64,000 nucleotides of DNA from Anaerovorax sp. IOR16 (GTDB lineage: Bacteria; Bacillota; Clostridia; Peptostreptococcales; Anaerovoracaceae), in assembly GCF_017168145.1 (NCBI RefSeq), contig NZ_JADQTL010000002.1:62001-126000 (forward strand), given 5' to 3'. Positions 18,996 to 36,997 of the stretch are shown here, piece by piece. Every line of letters starts with the position of its first letter. Within the stretch, counting starts at the first letter, position 1. A program made the position numbers and the translations under genes. The notes under the pieces were generated by a model. The model ran no database searches and had not been told where the DNA came from. It saw only the letters and a program-made list of their open reading frames with translations.

Positions 18996-19802
18996 CTATC
19001 TATTTTTAAATACTGGTTTTCTCTTTTCTATAAAAGCGTCCATGCCTTCCTGCTTGTCCTCAGTTGCAAAGGTAAGCCCTGCCGCGTCTTTTTCAAGCTC
19101 AAGGGCATTTAGGAGATCAAGATCAGTACCTTTATTAATAACAACTTTTGCATATTTTATTGCAATTGGCGCATTCTCTATAATCATTTTCATACACGCT
19201 TTTGCCTCGTCAATCAAAGCTTCCTCCGTAACAACTCGATTAACAAGACCCATAGAAAATGCTTCATCCGGCTTTATCTGTCTTGCAGTATAAATTAAAT
19301 CTTTTGCCCTACCTGCACCAACCAATCTTGTAAGTCTCTGTGTTCCTCCAAAACAAGGAATAACGCCAAGTTTTACCTCCGGTTGTCCAAAAACGGCTTT
19401 TTCTGATGCAATTCTTAAATCACAGCACATTGCAAGTTCACAACCGCCTCCTAATGCATATCCATTTACTGCAGCGATTACTGGTTTTTCAAATGATTCA
19501 ATTTTGTTAAATACATTCTGTGCATACCCTGCATAATCTCTGCCTTCTTCACTCTTGTAAGCCTGCATCTGAAGAATATCTGCGCCCGCTACAAATGCCT
19601 TTCCCGTACCGGTTATGATGATACCTTTTATTTCTTTGCTCTCATCAAATACCTCAAATATTTTTTCCAGTTCATCTAACGTCTTATCATTTAGTGCATT
19701 CAATGCTTTGGGGCGATTCATAATAACCAATGCAATGCCATCATCATATTCAACTTTGATGTTTTCCAGCATTTCCATCAATCTTACTAAACCATTGTTC
19801 AT
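18996..19802 (-). CDS. Crotonase-type enoyl-CoA hydratase
   Basis: 268-residue crotonase-fold enzyme. Oxyanion-hole blocks are GKAFVAGADILQMQ and NGYALGGGCELAMCCDL. Both catalytic glutamates of classical enoyl-CoA hydratase are present, in GGGCELAMCC and FGQPEVKLG. It should interconvert 3-hydroxyacyl-CoA and 2-enoyl-CoA. First gene of the operon, with GAGGAGG six bases before the ATG at 19802 and a sigma-54 promoter upstream. Internal Mets at 19775 and 19769 lack ribosome sites. Confidence 0.92.
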   Translation of the reverse strand: MNNGLVRLMEMLENIKVEYDDGIALVIMNRPKALNALNDKTLDELEKIFEVFDESKEIKGIIITGTGKAFVAGADILQMQAYKSEEGRDYAGYAQNVFNKIESFEKPVIAAVNGYALGGGCELAMCCDLRIASEKAVFGQPEVKLGVIPCFGGTQRLTRLVGAGRAKDLIYTARQIKPDEAFSMGLVNRVVTEEALIDEAKACMKMIIENAPIAIKYAKVVINKGTDLDLLNALELEKDAAGLTFATEDKQEGMDAFIEKRKPVFKNR

Positions 19803-19909: not shown

Positions 19910-19925
19910 AGCAATTGCCATGCCA
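19910..19925 (-). promoter_or_regulatory. Sigma-54 (-24/-12) promoter of the acyl-CoA operon
   Basis: Minus strand reads TGGCATGGCAATTGCT. This matches the sigma-54 consensus TGGCAC-G-N4-TTGCW with the invariant GG and GC at correct spacing. The expected start lies near 19899, about 100 bases before the crotonase gene. Confidence 0.85.
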
Positions 19926-20095
19926 AATATTCATTATCATCTGAATTGTTAAAAAAATAATTTATAAATTGCGATATTTTTTACCATTTTTGTAATAAAA
20001 CAATAAAATTTCTATTAATAATACGTTTAAGATGATATCTTGTTAATGTAATTCATAGATATATGTGTATTTTTCATAAAAAATCAGCTCTTTTT

Positions 20096-21482: not shown

Positions 21483-23066
21483 TTAAAGATTCCATTGAAT
21501 TATGATTTCTTTTTCTCCTCTCACCTTTGTGTTTTTTACGTAGATTACATCCACAAACTCTTCTATTATCTCCCGATTTAGTTGCGTCATATTCATGTAC
21601 TTCTTAATGGCCTTTTTCTTCTCTTGAGCAAGGTCAATTTTCAGATTGTAGCTTTCAATCTCTTTTTCTAAGGTTTTTATCTGTTTTTTACACTTCACTT
21701 CCCGATCTGACAAACCATGATTTAAAGAGATAAACTGTTTTTCTGTAATCACTCCTTTTACTTTATCCATATATAAGTTTTCTAAAGCTAGTTGGGCATC
21801 TGTTAATTGCACCTGAACTGCTTGAAGCGTTGCCCTGGATTTTTCCATCTGTGCTGAAATTGTGGTTTCTCCCTGTATTAAGGTTTCCAAGTCTTGTTCT
21901 GAGCTATATTGGTGAATTAGCTTTTTTAATTCTGTAAATACGGTTTCTTCGATTAACTTATAAGAAACTGACACCCCAATCTGACAGACATCATATTTTT
22001 TCATGGGACAGATGAAATATCGCTTATTTCCATACCCATGGTGTTTAATTAATGCCGACTGACATGTAGCGCATTTAAGCTTGCCGACAAAAATATGACG
22101 CTTTCCAGTCTGTTCCGGTCTCGTTCTTGTTTTAGCTAACTCCTGCACCAATTCAAAGGTCTGACGGTCAACAATCGGCTCATGCGTATTTTCTACAATA
22201 ACCCACTCTGATTTTGATTTTCTGATTTTTGCACTATTTTTATAACTAATTGTACCGCTTTTCCCCTGCACCATGTCACCAATATAGTCACGGTTTTTTA
22301 ATATGACATTAACGGAGCTGCTACGCCATATTCGTCCCTGCTTTCCTCTCTGACGTGGAATGTAATTCAGCCCCTGCTGACGTTTATACTCCGCAGGGCA
22401 GGGATAGCCTAAGTCATTTAGTTTTTGGGCGATTCGAGTTAAACCGTAACCTTCTAGATATAGTTTAAATATCAAGCGGACTACCTTTGCCGCCGGTTCG
22501 TCGATAATAAAATGGTTTTTGTCTTTTGGATCCTTCAGGTATCCATAGGGGGCGAACGCACCTACAAACTTGCCCTGCTTCTTTTTTACTTCGAAGACAG
22601 CTTTTATATTTTCGGATAAATCTTCTACATACCATTCATTCACCAGACCGTTAATCTGGCGACTTTTTTTATTACCCTTAACATCTGTATCTGCACTGTC
22701 CACAATCGATACAAAACGTATCCCCCAAAGAGGAAATTTTTTATGAAGTATATTCTCTACGTACTCCATATCCCTTGTAAAACGAGACTGTGACTTCGCT
22801 AATACGATATTAACCTTACCCGCTTCTGCATCCTTCATTAATCTAGAAAACTCCGGACGTTCAATAGCTTCATCGGCTCCGGAAAAATCGTCATCTGAGT
22901 AAATATCATATATTTCCCATCCATTCTTTAAAGAATGGTTTATCAACATCGTTTTCTGATTTTGTATACTTTCAGAGTCATCTTCTTTGTTCTTCTTTTT
23001 TAAATCCTCATCTGACAGGCGACAATAAATTGCTACAATATTTCGTGGTACATGGTCCTGTTTCAT
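21483..23066 (-). CDS. Large serine recombinase (element integrase)
   Basis: 527-residue site-specific recombinase. The catalytic Ser is in AIYCRLSDED near residue 18. Resolvase fold to about residue 160, recombinase domain around residues 170-290, zinc ribbon CATCQ...FICPMKKYDVC near 345-375, and a coiled-coil before the C-terminus. It lies directly beside the broken dacF gene, as expected for an integrase at the end of an integrated element. ATG at 23066 has GAGGAAATC upstream, within the end of a small upstream ORF. Confidence 0.95.
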   Translation of the reverse strand: MKQDHVPRNIVAIYCRLSDEDLKKKNKEDDSESIQNQKTMLINHSLKNGWEIYDIYSDDDFSGADEAIERPEFSRLMKDAEAGKVNIVLAKSQSRFTRDMEYVENILHKKFPLWGIRFVSIVDSADTDVKGNKKSRQINGLVNEWYVEDLSENIKAVFEVKKKQGKFVGAFAPYGYLKDPKDKNHFIIDEPAAKVVRLIFKLYLEGYGLTRIAQKLNDLGYPCPAEYKRQQGLNYIPRQRGKQGRIWRSSSVNVILKNRDYIGDMVQGKSGTISYKNSAKIRKSKSEWVIVENTHEPIVDRQTFELVQELAKTRTRPEQTGKRHIFVGKLKCATCQSALIKHHGYGNKRYFICPMKKYDVCQIGVSVSYKLIEETVFTELKKLIHQYSSEQDLETLIQGETTISAQMEKSRATLQAVQVQLTDAQLALENLYMDKVKGVITEKQFISLNHGLSDREVKCKKQIKTLEKEIESYNLKIDLAQEKKKAIKKYMNMTQLNREIIEEFVDVIYVKNTKVRGEKEIIIQWNL

Positions 23067-29364: not shown

Positions 29365-29685
29365 TTAATTTGAAGATGATAATTTTAGTCCAATAATTCC
29401 TAATATTATAAAGCCAATAAAAATCACCTTGCTTATGTTCATTGTTTCTTTAAATAGGAATATCCCTAAAATAATTGTACCAACTGTACCAATTCCAGTC
29501 CAAATTGCATACGCAGTTCCCAATGGAAGGTATTTCAATGCTAATGATAGAAAATAGAAACTTGCTATCATCCCTAGAATTGTAAATATGCTTGGCACTA
29601 ATCGTGTTAAGCCAAAAGAATATTTTAACCCTATAGCCCAAAGTACTTCAAAGCAACCAGCAACCAATAAAAAAAACCATTTCAT
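29365..29685 (-). CDS. gdx: SMR-family guanidinium exporter (Gdx/SugE type)
   Basis: 106 residues, four membrane helices, with the SMR active-site Glu in GCFEVLWAIGLKYS. The WAIGLKYS stretch is typical of the SugE/Gdx subgroup and not of the polyspecific EmrE group. AIWTGIGTVGTIILGI is the usual third-helix block. The ATG at 29685 has GGAGGATC upstream; the longer frame to 29703 overlaps that site. A guanidine-I riboswitch in its leader fixes the likely substrate as guanidinium. Confidence 0.9.
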   Translation of the reverse strand: MKWFFLLVAGCFEVLWAIGLKYSFGLTRLVPSIFTILGMIASFYFLSLALKYLPLGTAYAIWTGIGTVGTIILGIFLFKETMNISKVIFIGFIILGIIGLKLSSSN

Positions 29686-29739
29686 AATATTGATCCTCCT
29701 CAAGTTAAATTTTTTTAATTCTACCTTTTGATAGGAATA

Positions 29740-29857
29740 AAAAAAGCCATGGTTGATATTTAAATATCTCCCAGGCTTTTTCCCTTCCGTGTATACAGCT
29801 AAACTGTACGCTTTATCTCGGACCAGACCAGTTTTATTAAACAGCGGAACCCTATAA
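29740..29857 (-). promoter_or_regulatory. Guanidine-I (ykkC) riboswitch with terminator
   Basis: Minus strand shows the conserved aptamer blocks ATAGGGTTCCG (29855-29845), GGTCTGGTCCGAGAT and ACGGAAGGGAAAAAGCC. They overlap a terminator made of AAAGCCTGG / CCATGGCTTT and a T7 run. Ligand binding should prevent termination and switch on gdx. Confidence 0.92.
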
Positions 29858-29880
29858 AGCTTAATATTATATTTAAATTT

Positions 29881-29994: not shown

Positions 29995-32070
29995 TTAAAT
30001 ATCATACTTCTGTTTTTTCCGCATTAGTTTAGGTTGAGAAATATGAAGAAATTCTGCTGCCTTTCTTGTAGTACCAAATTTTTTTAAAGCATATTGTATC
30101 AGTTGTACTTCCTGTTGCTCTATAATTTTCTCAAAATCCAAGGAAGGTAAAGATTTCATATTACGCTTTAAATTTATTATTAAATCATCATATGTTTTTT
30201 CATTTAAAACTCCTTCAATATCATCTTCCGTAATTACATGACTTTTTACGCTAATTACAACTCGATGTATTAAATTTTCTAACTCTCTAACATTGCCAGG
30301 CCAATCATAATCAGTAAGTTTTATTAAAGCATTAGGAGCAAACTCCTTATCGATTTTATAGTGATTACAATATCTTCCAAGAAATGATACAGCCAAAGAT
30401 ACAATATCATCACGGCGATCCCGGAGTGGCGGAACAGTAATTATATAGATATTTAACCTGTAGTACAAATCCTCTCTAAATTTACCCTGCTCCACAAGCT
30501 GCCGTAAAGGTATATTATTTGCACAGATAACACGTACATTAATATTAATAGGTGACGTACCACCCACCTTATAAAACTGACTTTCCTGAAGAGCTCTTAG
30601 GAGTTTTGATTGAAGATTCAAGGAGAGAGCACCCACTTCATCTAAAAATAATATCCCCCCATTGGCAAGCTCGAAATACCCTTTCTTCCCTGTTGCTTGT
30701 GCTCCGGTAAAAGAACCTGCTACATATCCAAAAAATTCACTCTCAGCAAGATTTTCTTGGATAGTTGCGCAATTAATCTTGATACATGGTTTGCCCTTTC
30801 GAATACTATTTTTGTGTATCAAATCAAGAATTTTCTCTTTGCCAACACCAGTTTCTCCCTGAATGATAATATTACAATCATATTGGGCTACATTTAAAAC
30901 TTCATCTACCAATGCTTTTGTTGAAGAACTGCTGAAAATGAAGTCAGCTATTTTTCCTTTTTTTTCTATTAAAGTGGCAATTTCTTTTTTTGTGGCCTGA
31001 TGAAAAGCGATTGCCTGCGATTCATATAGTTTATTTATCCTGTCCAAATCTTTTGAAATCGATATTAGTAAATTAAATGTAAACTTCTCATATCCGATAA
31101 TGAATTGGCCTAACACATACGTTTCAAGCTCTTTACTCATACTTTCTGCAATTAAGATGGATTGAGTATAACTATTTTTCAGACTTGTGAAATATAGTTT
31201 CCCTTTATGACGTGTAAGAATAACACTTAAAACTTCAGAACCCAAAAGATCTTCACAGTTAATTGTCATATCATATTCTTTTTCTTCTTTCAAAATCACT
31301 TTTAATGAGTTGACTGGTTGAGCAATATTAAGGATATAGGACGAATTAACCCAATGTGTCAGCTCATTTTCAACTTGCTTCGGAGTAAGCGTTCCTATTC
31401 CACCTTCGTCAAGAATTACTGTGATGTAGCAATCATCACCTACCGCTTTTTTGATCGAGCAAACATAAGTTATACTTGAAACTAAATCTTTCCCAATAAT
31501 AAGATAGCGTTGGCCTTTGCGAGACACATTATGGATATTATATAAACTTGCAGCCTCATCAAAGGTAGCCATCGTATAATTTAACTGTAAAGTAGGAGGG
31601 ATTATTGTTAATGGCGATCCGATGAAAACAATACCATAACCCATTACAGTGAGTTCTCCGTAATTGTAGTCAATCTTATGAATTTTATCAATATAAATTG
31701 GGTGCGCCGTCATCGTTGTCAGACAAAAAACATTATCCCCTATTTTATATCGTGAACTCTTTTTAAATTCACTTCCCATCTCCTCGATAGCACCATAAAA
31801 TTGTCCGGCAGTATCCGTAAAAGGATTATGAAGTTTTCCTCGTCTATTTATTAAATCTAAAATCTTAGCAATAATTTTAGCTTCATCGAAGCTACATTCG
31901 CTGCACAATTGTTGAAAACAATCTCTTTCTAAGTGAATCAATTCTAAAGATATTCTGCACTCTAAAGGTGATATTTCCCTAGCATTATCCACCTTCCATG
32001 CAGTAACTGGAACAGCATCCTTTGGTTCTATTACACGGCTAAGTCCAAATGTATCATATATTAAATCCAT
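29995..32070 (-). CDS. Sigma-54 activator with 3,5-diaminohexanoate-dehydrogenase-like sensor
   Basis: 691 residues. Residues 1-345 resemble L-erythro-3,5-diaminohexanoate dehydrogenase of lysine fermentation (SRVIEPKDAVPVTAWKVDN, RRGKLHNPFTDTAGQFYG). The Rossmann glycine motif is degraded (YLIIGKDLVSS), so a sensor is likelier than an enzyme. The AAA+ domain has GETGVGKEKI, GSFTGA instead of GAFTGA, and ILFLDEVGAL. A Fis-type HTH ends the protein (TTRKAAEFLHISQPKLMRKK). Divergent from a sigma-54-promoted transporter operon that it probably activates. The start follows AAGGAGG. Confidence 0.82.
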   Translation of the reverse strand: MDLIYDTFGLSRVIEPKDAVPVTAWKVDNAREISPLECRISLELIHLERDCFQQLCSECSFDEAKIIAKILDLINRRGKLHNPFTDTAGQFYGAIEEMGSEFKKSSRYKIGDNVFCLTTMTAHPIYIDKIHKIDYNYGELTVMGYGIVFIGSPLTIIPPTLQLNYTMATFDEAASLYNIHNVSRKGQRYLIIGKDLVSSITYVCSIKKAVGDDCYITVILDEGGIGTLTPKQVENELTHWVNSSYILNIAQPVNSLKVILKEEKEYDMTINCEDLLGSEVLSVILTRHKGKLYFTSLKNSYTQSILIAESMSKELETYVLGQFIIGYEKFTFNLLISISKDLDRINKLYESQAIAFHQATKKEIATLIEKKGKIADFIFSSSSTKALVDEVLNVAQYDCNIIIQGETGVGKEKILDLIHKNSIRKGKPCIKINCATIQENLAESEFFGYVAGSFTGAQATGKKGYFELANGGILFLDEVGALSLNLQSKLLRALQESQFYKVGGTSPININVRVICANNIPLRQLVEQGKFREDLYYRLNIYIITVPPLRDRRDDIVSLAVSFLGRYCNHYKIDKEFAPNALIKLTDYDWPGNVRELENLIHRVVISVKSHVITEDDIEGVLNEKTYDDLIINLKRNMKSLPSLDFEKIIEQQEVQLIQYALKKFGTTRKAAEFLHISQPKLMRKKQKYDI

Positions 32071-32120: not shown

Positions 32121-32171
32121 TTGAATCGATATTGAATCATTTGAACTAATGATGATTTAATATCAATTCAA
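32121..32171 (+). promoter_or_regulatory. Upstream activator dyad for the eamA operon
   Basis: Inverted repeat TTGAATCGATATTGAATCA (32121-32139) / TGATTTAATATCAATTCAA (32153-32171), 17 of 19 positions matching. It lies about 70 bp upstream of the -24 element and beside the divergent activator gene. Confidence 0.7.
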
Positions 32172-32242
32172 ATATTATTTGTCTAATTTATTTTATACGC
32201 TTTAGAAGCTTATATTTACACATTATAATTTACTATAACAAT

Positions 32243-32258
32243 TGGCATAGAAATTGCT
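32243..32258 (+). promoter_or_regulatory. Sigma-54 (-24/-12) promoter of the eamA operon
   Basis: TGGCATAGAAATTGCT has GG and GC at sigma-54 spacing. Expected start is near 32270, about 28 bases before the ATG. Confidence 0.85.
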
Positions 32259-32297: not shown

Positions 32298-33260
32298 ATG
32301 CAAAAAAAAGTACGCGGTGAATTTATGTTAATTATAACGGCTTTGATATGGGGATCAGCCTTTGTAGCCCAAAGAGCTGGAATGGAATACATTGGTCCTT
32401 TCACTTTGAACGGAATAAGATGTTTAATTGGATCTCTTTCTCTGCTACCTGTTATAATTATAATGGATCACCAAAAGAAAAAAATACAATCAAATACGAA
32501 TCAAAACGAAATAGAAACTATGAAAATTAAACTAAGAGATGAAAAAAAAAGTTTGATTATGGGGGGATTGTCTTGCGGTATTATTTTTTTCATATCCAGC
32601 TCATTGCAACAGTTTGGAATGATTTATACTACTGCCGGAAAAGCTGGATTTATCACAGCATTATACATTGTTATCGTACCCGTTTTAGGAATTTTTCTAA
32701 AACAAAAAATTCGTCCAATTCTATGGTTGTGTATATTATTAGCAACAGCGGGTTTATACTTGCTTTGTATTCAAGAAGGTTTTTCAATAAACAAAGGAGA
32801 CTTCCTGATACTGATTTGTGCATTTGGATTTTCAATACACATTTTAATAATAGATTATTTTTCTCCAAAAACAGACAGTGTAAAGTTATCTTGCCTTCAA
32901 TTCCTTGTTTGTGGGATTCTTTCAATGCCTTGTATGATTATTTTTGAAACCATTAACTGGACCGATATCATTAATTGCTGGCTACCAATTTTATATGCCG
33001 GTATTATGTCTTGTGGTGTTGCATATACCCTACAAGTTATTGCACAAAAATACACTGAGCCTACACTTACATCGCTCATTCTAAGCTTAGAGTCTGTGTT
33101 TGCTGTAATTGCAGGAATTATCATTTTAAAAGAACAAATTTCCATACGTGAATCTTTTGGATGCATTATAATGTTTACTGCAATACTTCTAGCACAGATT
33201 CCATCTAAAAGAAAAATAGCAGATAAATCAATGAAAAAAATTAAGACATTTGAAACATGA
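32298..33260 (+). CDS. DMT-superfamily (EamA) transporter
   Basis: 320 residues, ten predicted helices in two EamA repeats. The first begins FMLIITALIWGSAFVAQRAG, the second GDFLILICAFGFSIHI with a late LESVFAVIAGIIILKEQIS. A plasma-membrane metabolite exporter or importer. First gene of a three-gene sigma-54-controlled operon opposite the Kdd-like activator. An amino acid or diamino acid related to lysine is a reasonable substrate guess, not a demonstrated one. AAGGAGA precedes the ATG. Confidence 0.85.
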   Translation: MQKKVRGEFMLIITALIWGSAFVAQRAGMEYIGPFTLNGIRCLIGSLSLLPVIIIMDHQKKKIQSNTNQNEIETMKIKLRDEKKSLIMGGLSCGIIFFISSSLQQFGMIYTTAGKAGFITALYIVIVPVLGIFLKQKIRPILWLCILLATAGLYLLCIQEGFSINKGDFLILICAFGFSIHILIIDYFSPKTDSVKLSCLQFLVCGILSMPCMIIFETINWTDIINCWLPILYAGIMSCGVAYTLQVIAQKYTEPTLTSLILSLESVFAVIAGIIILKEQISIRESFGCIIMFTAILLAQIPSKRKIADKSMKKIKTFET

Positions 33261-33326: not shown

Positions 33327-34043
33327 ATGGGCAAATTTATAATTACTGATGATTTCTGGGACCTATTTCCCAAAGCAGAAATTGCTGTAGTGACAGCAAA
33401 GAAAATCACAAATACAGAACAATCTGTATCAGATGTAAGATCTGAAATTAATGAACTATTAAAACAGAGCAGTAAAGAGGCAACCAAATTTATAACGCAA
33501 GGAGTATTCAGCCAAAATGAAGTTATTTCTGTTTGGCGAGAAGCTTATAAACAATTTAAGACAAAAAAAGGAGTTCGATGTTCGATAGAAGCCTTATTAA
33601 AACGAATAGAAAAAGGTACCGGTATTTCACCGATAAATCCTTTGGTAGACATCTATAATGCAGTATCTCTAACCTACGGTCTTCCTTGCGGTGGTGAGGA
33701 TATCGATACTTTTAAAGGAAATTTGTTTTTAACAAAGGCATCTGGCGGAGAACTTTTCCTTGCACTTGGTGATGAAGAATATGACAATGCCTTACCTGGG
33801 GAAATAGTATATAAAGACGACGATGGAGCCGTGTGCCGATGTTGGAATTGGCGCGACGGGCAAAGAACGATGCTAACGGAAAATACTAAAAATGCATTCC
33901 TAATTATTGAGTCCGTAGACCCGAACAGAAGTGATGACTTAAAAGCTGCTGCATTATTATTAGCGGAGCTTACTAAGAAATATCTTGGTGGTACTGTACA
34001 AATTACTCATATGAGTATTGCTGAACGTGAAATGAATTTGTAA
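33327..34043 (+). CDS. B3/B4 tRNA-binding-domain protein
   Basis: 238 residues with the B3/4 editing-type fold found in phenylalanyl-tRNA synthetase beta and free-standing homologues (COG3382). Typical blocks are RCSIEALLKRIEKG, SPINPLVDIYNAVSLTYGLPCGGED and ALPGEIVYKDD. Homologues may bind or hydrolyse mischarged or free amino-acid adducts; the role here is unproven. AAAGGAG upstream. Sits between a transporter and a flavoprotein in a sigma-54 operon. Confidence 0.82.
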   Translation: MGKFIITDDFWDLFPKAEIAVVTAKKITNTEQSVSDVRSEINELLKQSSKEATKFITQGVFSQNEVISVWREAYKQFKTKKGVRCSIEALLKRIEKGTGISPINPLVDIYNAVSLTYGLPCGGEDIDTFKGNLFLTKASGGELFLALGDEEYDNALPGEIVYKDDDGAVCRCWNWRDGQRTMLTENTKNAFLIIESVDPNRSDDLKAAALLLAELTKKYLGGTVQITHMSIAEREMNL

Positions 34044-34067
34044 CTTGTTATGAAGGAGGTTATAGGG

Positions 34068-34532
34068 ATGGATATGCGTAGATCAGATCGGCTTATGAGC
34101 AAAGAAGACACTTTGACGGTCTTAAAAGAAGGAGAATATGGAATCCTTGCATCAGTAGATGAGAAATTACAGCCTTATGGAGTGCCCTTAAATTATGTCT
34201 ATGTGAATAACTCCATCTATTTTCATAGCACTAGTGCCGGCGGTAGCAAATATAACAACATAAAATATAACAATAAAGTCTGCTTTACAGTTATAGGAAA
34301 AACAAAAGTTTTACCTGATAAATTTGGAACTTTATATGAAAGTTCTATTGTCTACGGAGAAGCTAGCCTAGTTACTAATGAAGAGGAACGATTAATGATC
34401 TTCAGAGAATTCCTAAAAAAATATTGTACCCAATATATAACTGCTGGAGAAAATTATATTAAGGCTGCCGGACCGAAAGCAATGGTAATTAAAATCACAA
34501 TAAAAAATCTTACTGGAAAACACCGCGTATAA
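34068..34532 (+). CDS. Pyridoxamine 5'-phosphate oxidase-like (NimA-type) flavoprotein
   Basis: 154 residues from the ATG at 34068. An upstream in-frame ATG at 34050 overlaps AAGGAGG and is rejected. Split-barrel FMN fold: YGILASVDEKLQPYGVPLNYVY, IYFHSTSAGGSKYNN, YESSIVYGEASLV. Related proteins include 5-nitroimidazole reductases and many uncharacterised flavin or PLP binders. Last gene of the operon. Confidence 0.82.
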   Translation: MDMRRSDRLMSKEDTLTVLKEGEYGILASVDEKLQPYGVPLNYVYVNNSIYFHSTSAGGSKYNNIKYNNKVCFTVIGKTKVLPDKFGTLYESSIVYGEASLVTNEEERLMIFREFLKKYCTQYITAGENYIKAAGPKAMVIKITIKNLTGKHRV

Positions 34533-36430: not shown

Positions 36431-36997
36431 ATGTCAAAGATAGGTTATATCAGGGTATCTACGATTGAACAAAATACAGACCGTCAAGAAGTAACTCTAG
36501 GCGATATTGGAATGGATAAGATTTTTATAGAAAAAGCATCAGGTAAAAATACTAAAAGACCTGAATTAAAGAAAATGCTTGAATATATTAGAGAAGGCGA
36601 TATTTTATATATCGAAAGTATTTCTAGGCTGGCCCGTAGTACAAAAGATTTACTTGCAATTGTACAGCAGCTTCAAGAAAAAAATGTTGAATTAATATCA
36701 TCAAAAGAAAACATAGATACAACTACACCTCAAGGACGATTTATTTTGACTGTCTTTGCTGCACTATCAGAGCTGGAAAGAGAGAATACACTACAAAGAC
36801 AAAAAGAAGGCATTGCTGCTGCACGAATCAAAGGTAAAAGATTTGGTCGGCCGAAAATTGAAAAACCGAAAAAATGGGATGAAGTTATTTCTCTATGGAC
36901 AAACAATAGAATTACCGCTGTCGAAGCCATGCGTAGATTAAAAATGAATAGAGGGACCTTCTATCGAAGGGCTAAAGAATATAAAAAAATACAATAA
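36431..36997 (+). CDS. Small serine recombinase (resolvase/invertase family)
   Basis: 188 residues. Catalytic Ser in GYIRVSTIEQN (residue 10), the conserved SISRLARSTKDLL and FAALSELERE blocks, then a C-terminal HTH (EAMRRLKMNRGTFYRRAKEY). Size and layout match Tn3/Tn552-type resolvases. Upstream res-like dyads support resolvase function, perhaps dimer resolution of the element or a relic of a nested transposon. Confidence 0.9.
   Translation: MSKIGYIRVSTIEQNTDRQEVTLGDIGMDKIFIEKASGKNTKRPELKKMLEYIREGDILYIESISRLARSTKDLLAIVQQLQEKNVELISSKENIDTTTPQGRFILTVFAALSELERENTLQRQKEGIAAARIKGKRFGRPKIEKPKKWDEVISLWTNNRITAVEAMRRLKMNRGTFYRRAKEYKKIQ

Follow-up and report, generated by a model that had tools for sequence, protein, structure and literature searches.

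The window analysed here, a 64,000-nucleotide stretch of the Anaerovorax sp. IOR16 genome, carries on its minus strand an open reading frame for a protein of 691 amino acids. A reading of the sequence alone had proposed that this frame joins a domain resembling 3,5-diaminohexanoate dehydrogenase (KDD) to a sigma-54 AAA+ domain, and both its coordinates and its domains were confirmed. The protein and its parts are the following:

29995–32070, minus strand: open reading frame of the KDD-sensor sigma-54 activator, 691 aa (Pfam, NCBIfam, phmmer against PDB)
31036–32070, minus strand: predicted sensor domain, residues 1–345, KDD (medium-chain dehydrogenase) fold (profile, sequence and structure matches)
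30196–30939, minus strand: AAA+ domain and lid, residues 378–625 (Pfam)
30700–30717, minus strand: GSFTGA sigma-54 contact loop, residues 452–457 (sequence reading)
29998–30129, minus strand: C-terminal helix-turn-helix (HTH), residues 648–691 (weak Pfam match, below cut-off)

The Sigma54_activat domain (PF00158) spans residues 378–544 (E = 5e-61) and is followed by the AAA lid at residues 550–625 (E = 2e-20); Walker A (GETGVGKE, 405–412) and Walker B (GILFLDEV, 472–479) are both present. As to the proposed fusion with an AAA+ domain and an HTH, the AAA+ part is therefore firm, whereas the HTH part is weak, with Pfam scores of 24.3 bits for HTH_50 (cut-off 27) and 14.4 bits for HTH_8 (cut-off 22). 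The NCBIfam PrdR model reaches residue 690.

Related loci were compared using the best 80 of 220 found, which include Clostridium aminobutyricum, Sinanaerobacter, Acidaminobacter, Emergencia and Aminicella; in 79 of these 80 the frame exceeds 500 aa and aligns through the AAA+ domain. The sigma-54 loop does read GSFTGA, as the sequence-only reading stated, but the suggestion that this is an unusual loop with altered sigma-54 contact found no support: 21 of the 79 fusions carry it, several of them accompanied by consensus sigma-54 promoters, and GSFTGA is given among the loop variants still permitting activation (PMC6615313).

The sensor domain and its relation to the enzyme

Residues 9–173 match the NCBIfam KDD model NF052381 (E = 5.8e-31) with 107.8 bits, which falls short of the curated cut-off of 200 bits for this equivalog. 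Searching PDB sequences with phmmer matched residues 8–323 to 3,5-diaminohexanoate dehydrogenase (PDB 7dl3, E = 6.5e-22); up to E = 10, the only match beyond variants of the same enzyme came at E = 0.92. An AlphaFold2 model of residues 1–349 was built from an alignment of 51 sequences, namely that of the window together with 47 sensor domains and 3 free kdd proteins from the named loci, and reached a pLDDT of 93.5 and a pTM of 0.90. With this model, KDD chains occupy the top seven Foldseek rows (E = 4.5e-28 to 2.2e-26), ahead of a next row at 6.7e-12, and VIA-align gives Z values of 30.4–35.7 for four KDD entries, the next entry standing at 17.8. Foldseek, VIA-align, phmmer and NCBIfam thus agree that residues 1–345 are KDD-like, and the structural comparison, carried out on the predicted model, confirms a KDD fold, the crystal structures of this enzyme matching far better than any other fold. 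The lack of kinship with KDD that would have refuted the sequence-only reading was thus not observed. The likeness to KDD (PDB 7dl0, 7dl1, 7dl3, 7dl7; NF052381) covers the whole fold (residues 3–349, 20–21% identity) and includes a G-K-x-x-N-P-x-T motif and a glutamate at position 309 of the sensor and 310 of the enzyme. On the other hand, the sensor differs from KDD in being fused to AAA+ and HTH domains, in its score below the equivalog cut-off, and in lacking the cofactor loop and several invariant residues. The positions concerned are:

31474–31494, minus strand: position of the cofactor loop, residues 193–199, GKDLVSS here against GGGGKSG in the enzymes
31801–31842, minus strand: RGKLHNP-x-T motif, residues 77–90, retained
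31144–31146, minus strand: Glu309, retained, equivalent to Glu310 in the crystallised enzyme

Residues were compared with a reference of 33 free KDD rows, identical rows being merged. In the clade of the window's activator, 0, 0 and 1 of the 13 distinct rows retain the cofactor loop's invariant G, K and G, and none of the 58 rows of the clade associated with the lysine-fermentation (kam) cluster does; together with the invariant His14, these residues are lost in all three derived fusion groups. Gln25, likewise invariant in KDD, is also lost in the sensor. The Rossmann glycine motif is therefore broken, as proposed. G78, K79, N82 and P83 are kept in every row of the three groups and T85 in nearly all, with few exceptions. 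Glu309 is found in 13/13 rows of the window's clade, 58/58 of the kam clade and a fraction of 0.87 of the third group. A fusion-wide change from V to E (Glu172), after an invariant aspartate, is present in 13/13 and 58/58 rows of the two clades. The pocket motif reads NP-x-T-N/D-T-A-G-Q in the window's clade and NP-x-T-D-T-G-G in the kam clade.

The KDD fold and the loss of the cofactor loop support the earlier idea that an enzyme fold has been reused as a sensor. A clean division into a kept pocket and a lost cofactor half was borne out in part only: the window's clade keeps 42% of the KDD-invariant positions in the N-terminal part, 46% in residues 61–163, 36% in the Rossmann part and just 25% in the C-terminal part, indicating that drift in the C-terminal catalytic part exceeds even that in the Rossmann part.

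The divergent putative operon and its promoter

Upstream of the activator gene lie the following features:

32121–32171, no strand assigned: candidate enhancer (UAS), an inverted repeat of two 20-base arms, 18/20 complementary, 11 bases apart
32242–32258, plus strand: sigma-54 -24/-12 promoter facing the EamA gene, identical to the published consensus
32298–33260, plus strand: EamA-family transporter, inferred target, divergent in 10/10 loci
33327–34043, plus strand: stand-alone B3/4 domain protein, CtdA relative, after EamA in 6/10 loci
34050–34532, plus strand: pyridoxamine-oxidase/Nim-like protein, possible last operon gene, in the same order in L056

This arrangement was examined in ten loci with flanking sequence (the window, L050–L057 and L059; L058, which has no upstream flank, was excluded). 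The EamA gene is divergent to the activator in all ten, and the B3/4 gene follows it in six (the window, L050, L051, L052, L055 and L056). A TGGCAY-N5-TTGC promoter points toward EamA in 10/10 loci and occurs on the other strand in none, with 0.000 expected from shuffles. The copy at 32242–32258 exactly fits the sigma-54 consensus printed in PMC6615313. There are two exact copies of this 17-base consensus in the window and 13 in the whole genome of 3.38 Mb, where the reversed control gives 0; four of the 13 sites adjoin KDD fusions or kdd genes. The second site in the window (19910–19926, minus strand) is located just upstream of a crotonase-like gene (18996–19802, minus strand).

Between the EamA promoter and the activator gene there is a conserved block. 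Its inverted repeat scores above each of 20 shuffles in six of the ten loci, ties with them in L051 and L059 and falls below them in L055 and L056; in nine loci it ends 71–96 bases before the -24 element, and the best repeat of L059 sits at a different position. Genome-wide, the half-site pattern (up to 2 mismatches) has four matches, two of them at this locus; since the reversed control also matches once, the other two are not above chance, and no further operon under the same enhancer emerged in this genome.

Overall, the conserved arrangement makes it very likely that the activator turns on the divergent EamA exporter gene and, in its own genome, the B3/4 gene, putatively one for tRNA proofreading. 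Against this assignment stand the repeat, better than shuffles in only six of ten loci, the HTH scoring below its cut-offs, and the missing B3/4 gene in four of ten loci. Lysine export is known for a member of the EamA family (PMC9048822). In L053, L054 and L057, which lack B3/4, EamA stands tail to tail with leuA, leuC, leuD and leuB look-alikes identified by eye. Serine recombinase look-alikes, also recognised by eye (21483–23066 and 36431–36997), flank this part of the window.

The B3/4 protein consists of the stand-alone domain (PF03483, E = 3.7e-33) and matches CtdA structures 9f7e (E = 3.3e-28) and 9mkl (E = 3.1e-30). CtdA deacylates canavanyl-tRNA(Arg), as does a distant Clostridium perfringens B3/4 protein, and is often under guanidine riboswitches (PMC10018355). 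The neighbour at 33327–34043 shares with CtdA the stand-alone B3/4 domain. The genome holds a second stand-alone B3/4 gene beside a cyclase-like gene (G000:C8:320323-320715; L195 1375-2088).

On the other side of the activator, a guanidine-I riboswitch (RF00442, 89.6 bits) precedes a SugE/Gdx exporter gene (29365–29866, minus strand, the gene itself being 29365–29703), downstream of the activator and on the same strand. No guanidine riboswitch was found in the ten related loci L050–L059, some of which have short flanks, so it was rejected as a conserved partner. SugE/Gdx was discarded as a target of the activator because the riboswitch occupies the gap; in addition, the gene is downstream on the same strand and the gap shows no sigma-54 match.

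Distribution of the fusions and the kam clade

Seven places in the genome are KDD-like, of which four are fusions and three encode free enzymes. One fusion is found inside the lysine-fermentation cluster, between kal and kdd-kamA plus aminomutase genes; another adjoins an NhaC-type antiporter gene, and a further one lies next to genes resembling kdd and kce and a TRAP transporter gene (apart from kdd, NhaC, EamA, B3/4, SugE and Nim, genes were named by reading their sequences). The fusion had been thought rare, which holds at the scale of the phylum, where 64 of 299 genomes match the KDD model and frames of fusion length are confined to this genome and one other (G407). It does not hold within the order: a KDD match was obtained in 182 of 297 genomes, and at least 63, including at least 59 from the family of the window's organism, contain an open frame no shorter than 570 aa, a length used as a proxy for the fusion in a count made by hand.

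In a tree of 144 rows, for which the program warns of long branches, the window's activator falls into a clade of 16 rows (support 100) that is separate from the kam-cluster clade (70 rows, support 99); L057 (contig end), L034 (338 aa) and L020 (a copy of the genome's own gene) were left out of this first tree. A more careful tree of 72 rows separates 32 free enzymes (100/100) from 36 fusions without the cofactor loop (100/100), with four fusions falling between them: L018 (9832–11916), L160 (5776–7842) and L162, which keep GxxGKxG, and L164, which reads GASSKIG. L018 is a long branch whose placement is unsure. A single fusion event followed by loss of the cofactor loop would be the simplest reading of this unrooted tree, and the four fusions may represent an intermediate stage or NADPH-binding sensors.

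Among 47 loci of the kam clade, kal is present in 42 and free kdd in 44, several of the remaining ones running out of flank. The sigma-54 promoter pattern faces kal in 30/42 gaps and kdd in 30/42, while the opposite strand of the same gaps has it in 0/42 and 0/42. Promoter and contact loop go together: fusions with GxFTG have the promoter in 30/31 (kal) and 30/33 (kdd) cases, and those without GxFTG lack it in 11/11 and 9/9, although these counts come from related, not independent, loci, so that the Fisher value calculated from them is too strong. The fusions without GxFTG and without a promoter at kal (L089, L090, L093, L094, L101, L102, L107, L114, L119, L123 and L128) suggest a conversion to sigma-54-independent regulators, apparently in several tree groups, as rows lacking the loop are spread over several separate groups of the 144-row tree. 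Loss of sigma-54 itself was rejected as the cause, since rpoN is present in this genome (G000) and in 29/29 genomes tested, six of them with kam-type fusions lacking the loop. Paralogues that adjoin sigma-54 promoters and the genes kal, kdd and kamA tie the fusion family to lysine fermentation. For the present copy, whose conserved neighbour is an EamA transporter gene and not a fermentation gene, this link to the pathway intermediates of the earlier claim is indirect.

The candidate ligand and comparison with known regulators

Probably, the protein is a one-component activator in which a dead enzyme senses a basic or beta-amino acid and switches on export. The architecture, the fold, the lost cofactor loop, the conserved EamA partner and the -24/-12 promoter were established computationally; as to the ligand, we infer a basic or beta-amino acid that is either toxic or present in excess, because such a compound fits the ancestry of the sensor, the exporter and the deacylase together. 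It would bind in the former substrate pocket without cofactor, and this would release the AAA+ ring, which could then form on the inverted repeat some 70 bases ahead of the promoter. Contact with sigma-54 would be made by the GSFTGA loop, and ATP hydrolysis would open the promoter of EamA (with B3/4 and the Nim-like gene where present). The cell would export the compound via EamA and, where the B3/4 gene is present, the B3/4 protein would strip tRNA mischarged with it. The uneven retention across the sensor speaks against this reading, and Glu309 could speak for a dinucleotide.

A more specific proposal, plausible but somewhat short of probable, is that the sensor binds an intermediate of lysine fermentation (L-beta-lysine, 3,5-diaminohexanoate or 3-keto-5-aminohexanoate) and that the circuit vents overflow from the pathway. 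The KDD ancestry of the sensor, the retained G-K-x-x-N-P-x-T motif and the paralogous fusion in the genome's own kam/kdd/kal cluster are in its favour; however, the target genes lie outside the pathway, and the differences from the kam clade at pocket-motif positions suggest that the window's clade may have a different ligand. It is doubtful that the operon is instead a resistance module responding to an external arginine or lysine antimetabolite such as canavanine. The kinship of the B3/4 protein with CtdA, often riboswitch-controlled (PMC10018355), and the adjoining guanidine-I riboswitch and SugE/Gdx gene would agree with this, but neither the riboswitch (absent from L050–L059, some with short flanks) nor the B3/4 gene (missing in 4/10 loci) is constant, and the specificity of the B3/4 protein is not revealed by its sequence.

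Sensing of NAD(P)(H) or redox state is improbable. A dehydrogenase fold would suit it, and so would the retained Glu309, whose counterpart Glu310 is reported to hydrogen-bond the NADPH amide in the enzyme (PMC9902596). A dinucleotide-binding stage is indeed plausible for the four fusions near the enzymes, since L018, L160, L162 and, in part, L164 keep the cofactor loop fully or nearly. The loss of G-K-G throughout the window's clade nevertheless disfavours the NAD(H) ligand of the sequence-only reading. A bifunctional protein, with a still-active dehydrogenase fused to the regulator, is hardly tenable: the fold is intact in the AlphaFold2 model, but the lost cofactor loop, His14 and Gln25, the score under the KDD cut-off and the separate kdd genes of the same genome all disfavour live catalysis by this domain.

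Returning to the export circuit driven by a basic or beta-amino acid, one elaboration, which we regard as unlikely, is self-protection of a lysine fermenter: the dead dehydrogenase would recognise a self-made non-protein diamino acid, and the sigma-54 response would export it and proofread mischarged tRNA. If so, the family would record the steps from enzyme to sensor, namely fusion with an intact loop (L018, L160, L162 and partly L164), loop loss, and spread to new targets. More generally, sigma-54 activators would gain a sensor domain that originated as a pathway enzyme, and because living relatives carry intact, intermediate and dead forms, the way in which an enzyme turned into a sensor is open to experiment. 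The kam clade provides a candidate for the regulator of butyrate-forming lysine fermentation among gut and anaerobic bacteria, the sensor may offer a ready-made scaffold on which to build biosensors for beta- and diamino acids, and the proposed circuit would link amino-acid sensing, export and tRNA proofreading.

Catalytic folds that read a metabolite occur in other regulators, such as MocR/GabR (aminotransferase fold), NmrA, BirA and ROK, which differ from the KDD sensor in their folds and output domains. A KDD-sensor activator was not found among the open-access papers searched, which included PMC6615313, PMC4428206, PMC4697335 and PMC12316311. KamR of Bacillus thuringiensis is likewise a sigma-54 activator of a lysine aminomutase locus, but is described as having a PAS-domain sensor, which sets it apart (PMC4428206). 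A close parallel is offered by the one-component enhancer-binding proteins (EBPs) of Clostridia (PrdR, OrdR and others), which share an N-terminal regulatory domain, an AAA+ domain with GxFTGA, a probable local target, a -24/-12 promoter and an upstream inverted repeat, and which have a C-terminal HTH, for which the match in the present protein is weak; in the domain list of a survey of 490 EBPs, the domains named are PAS, GAF, ACT, PrpR_N, Fe_hyd_lg_C and others, with no KDD domain among them (PMC6615313). The present protein would thus add a one-component sigma-54 activator with a KDD-derived sensor to this known class.
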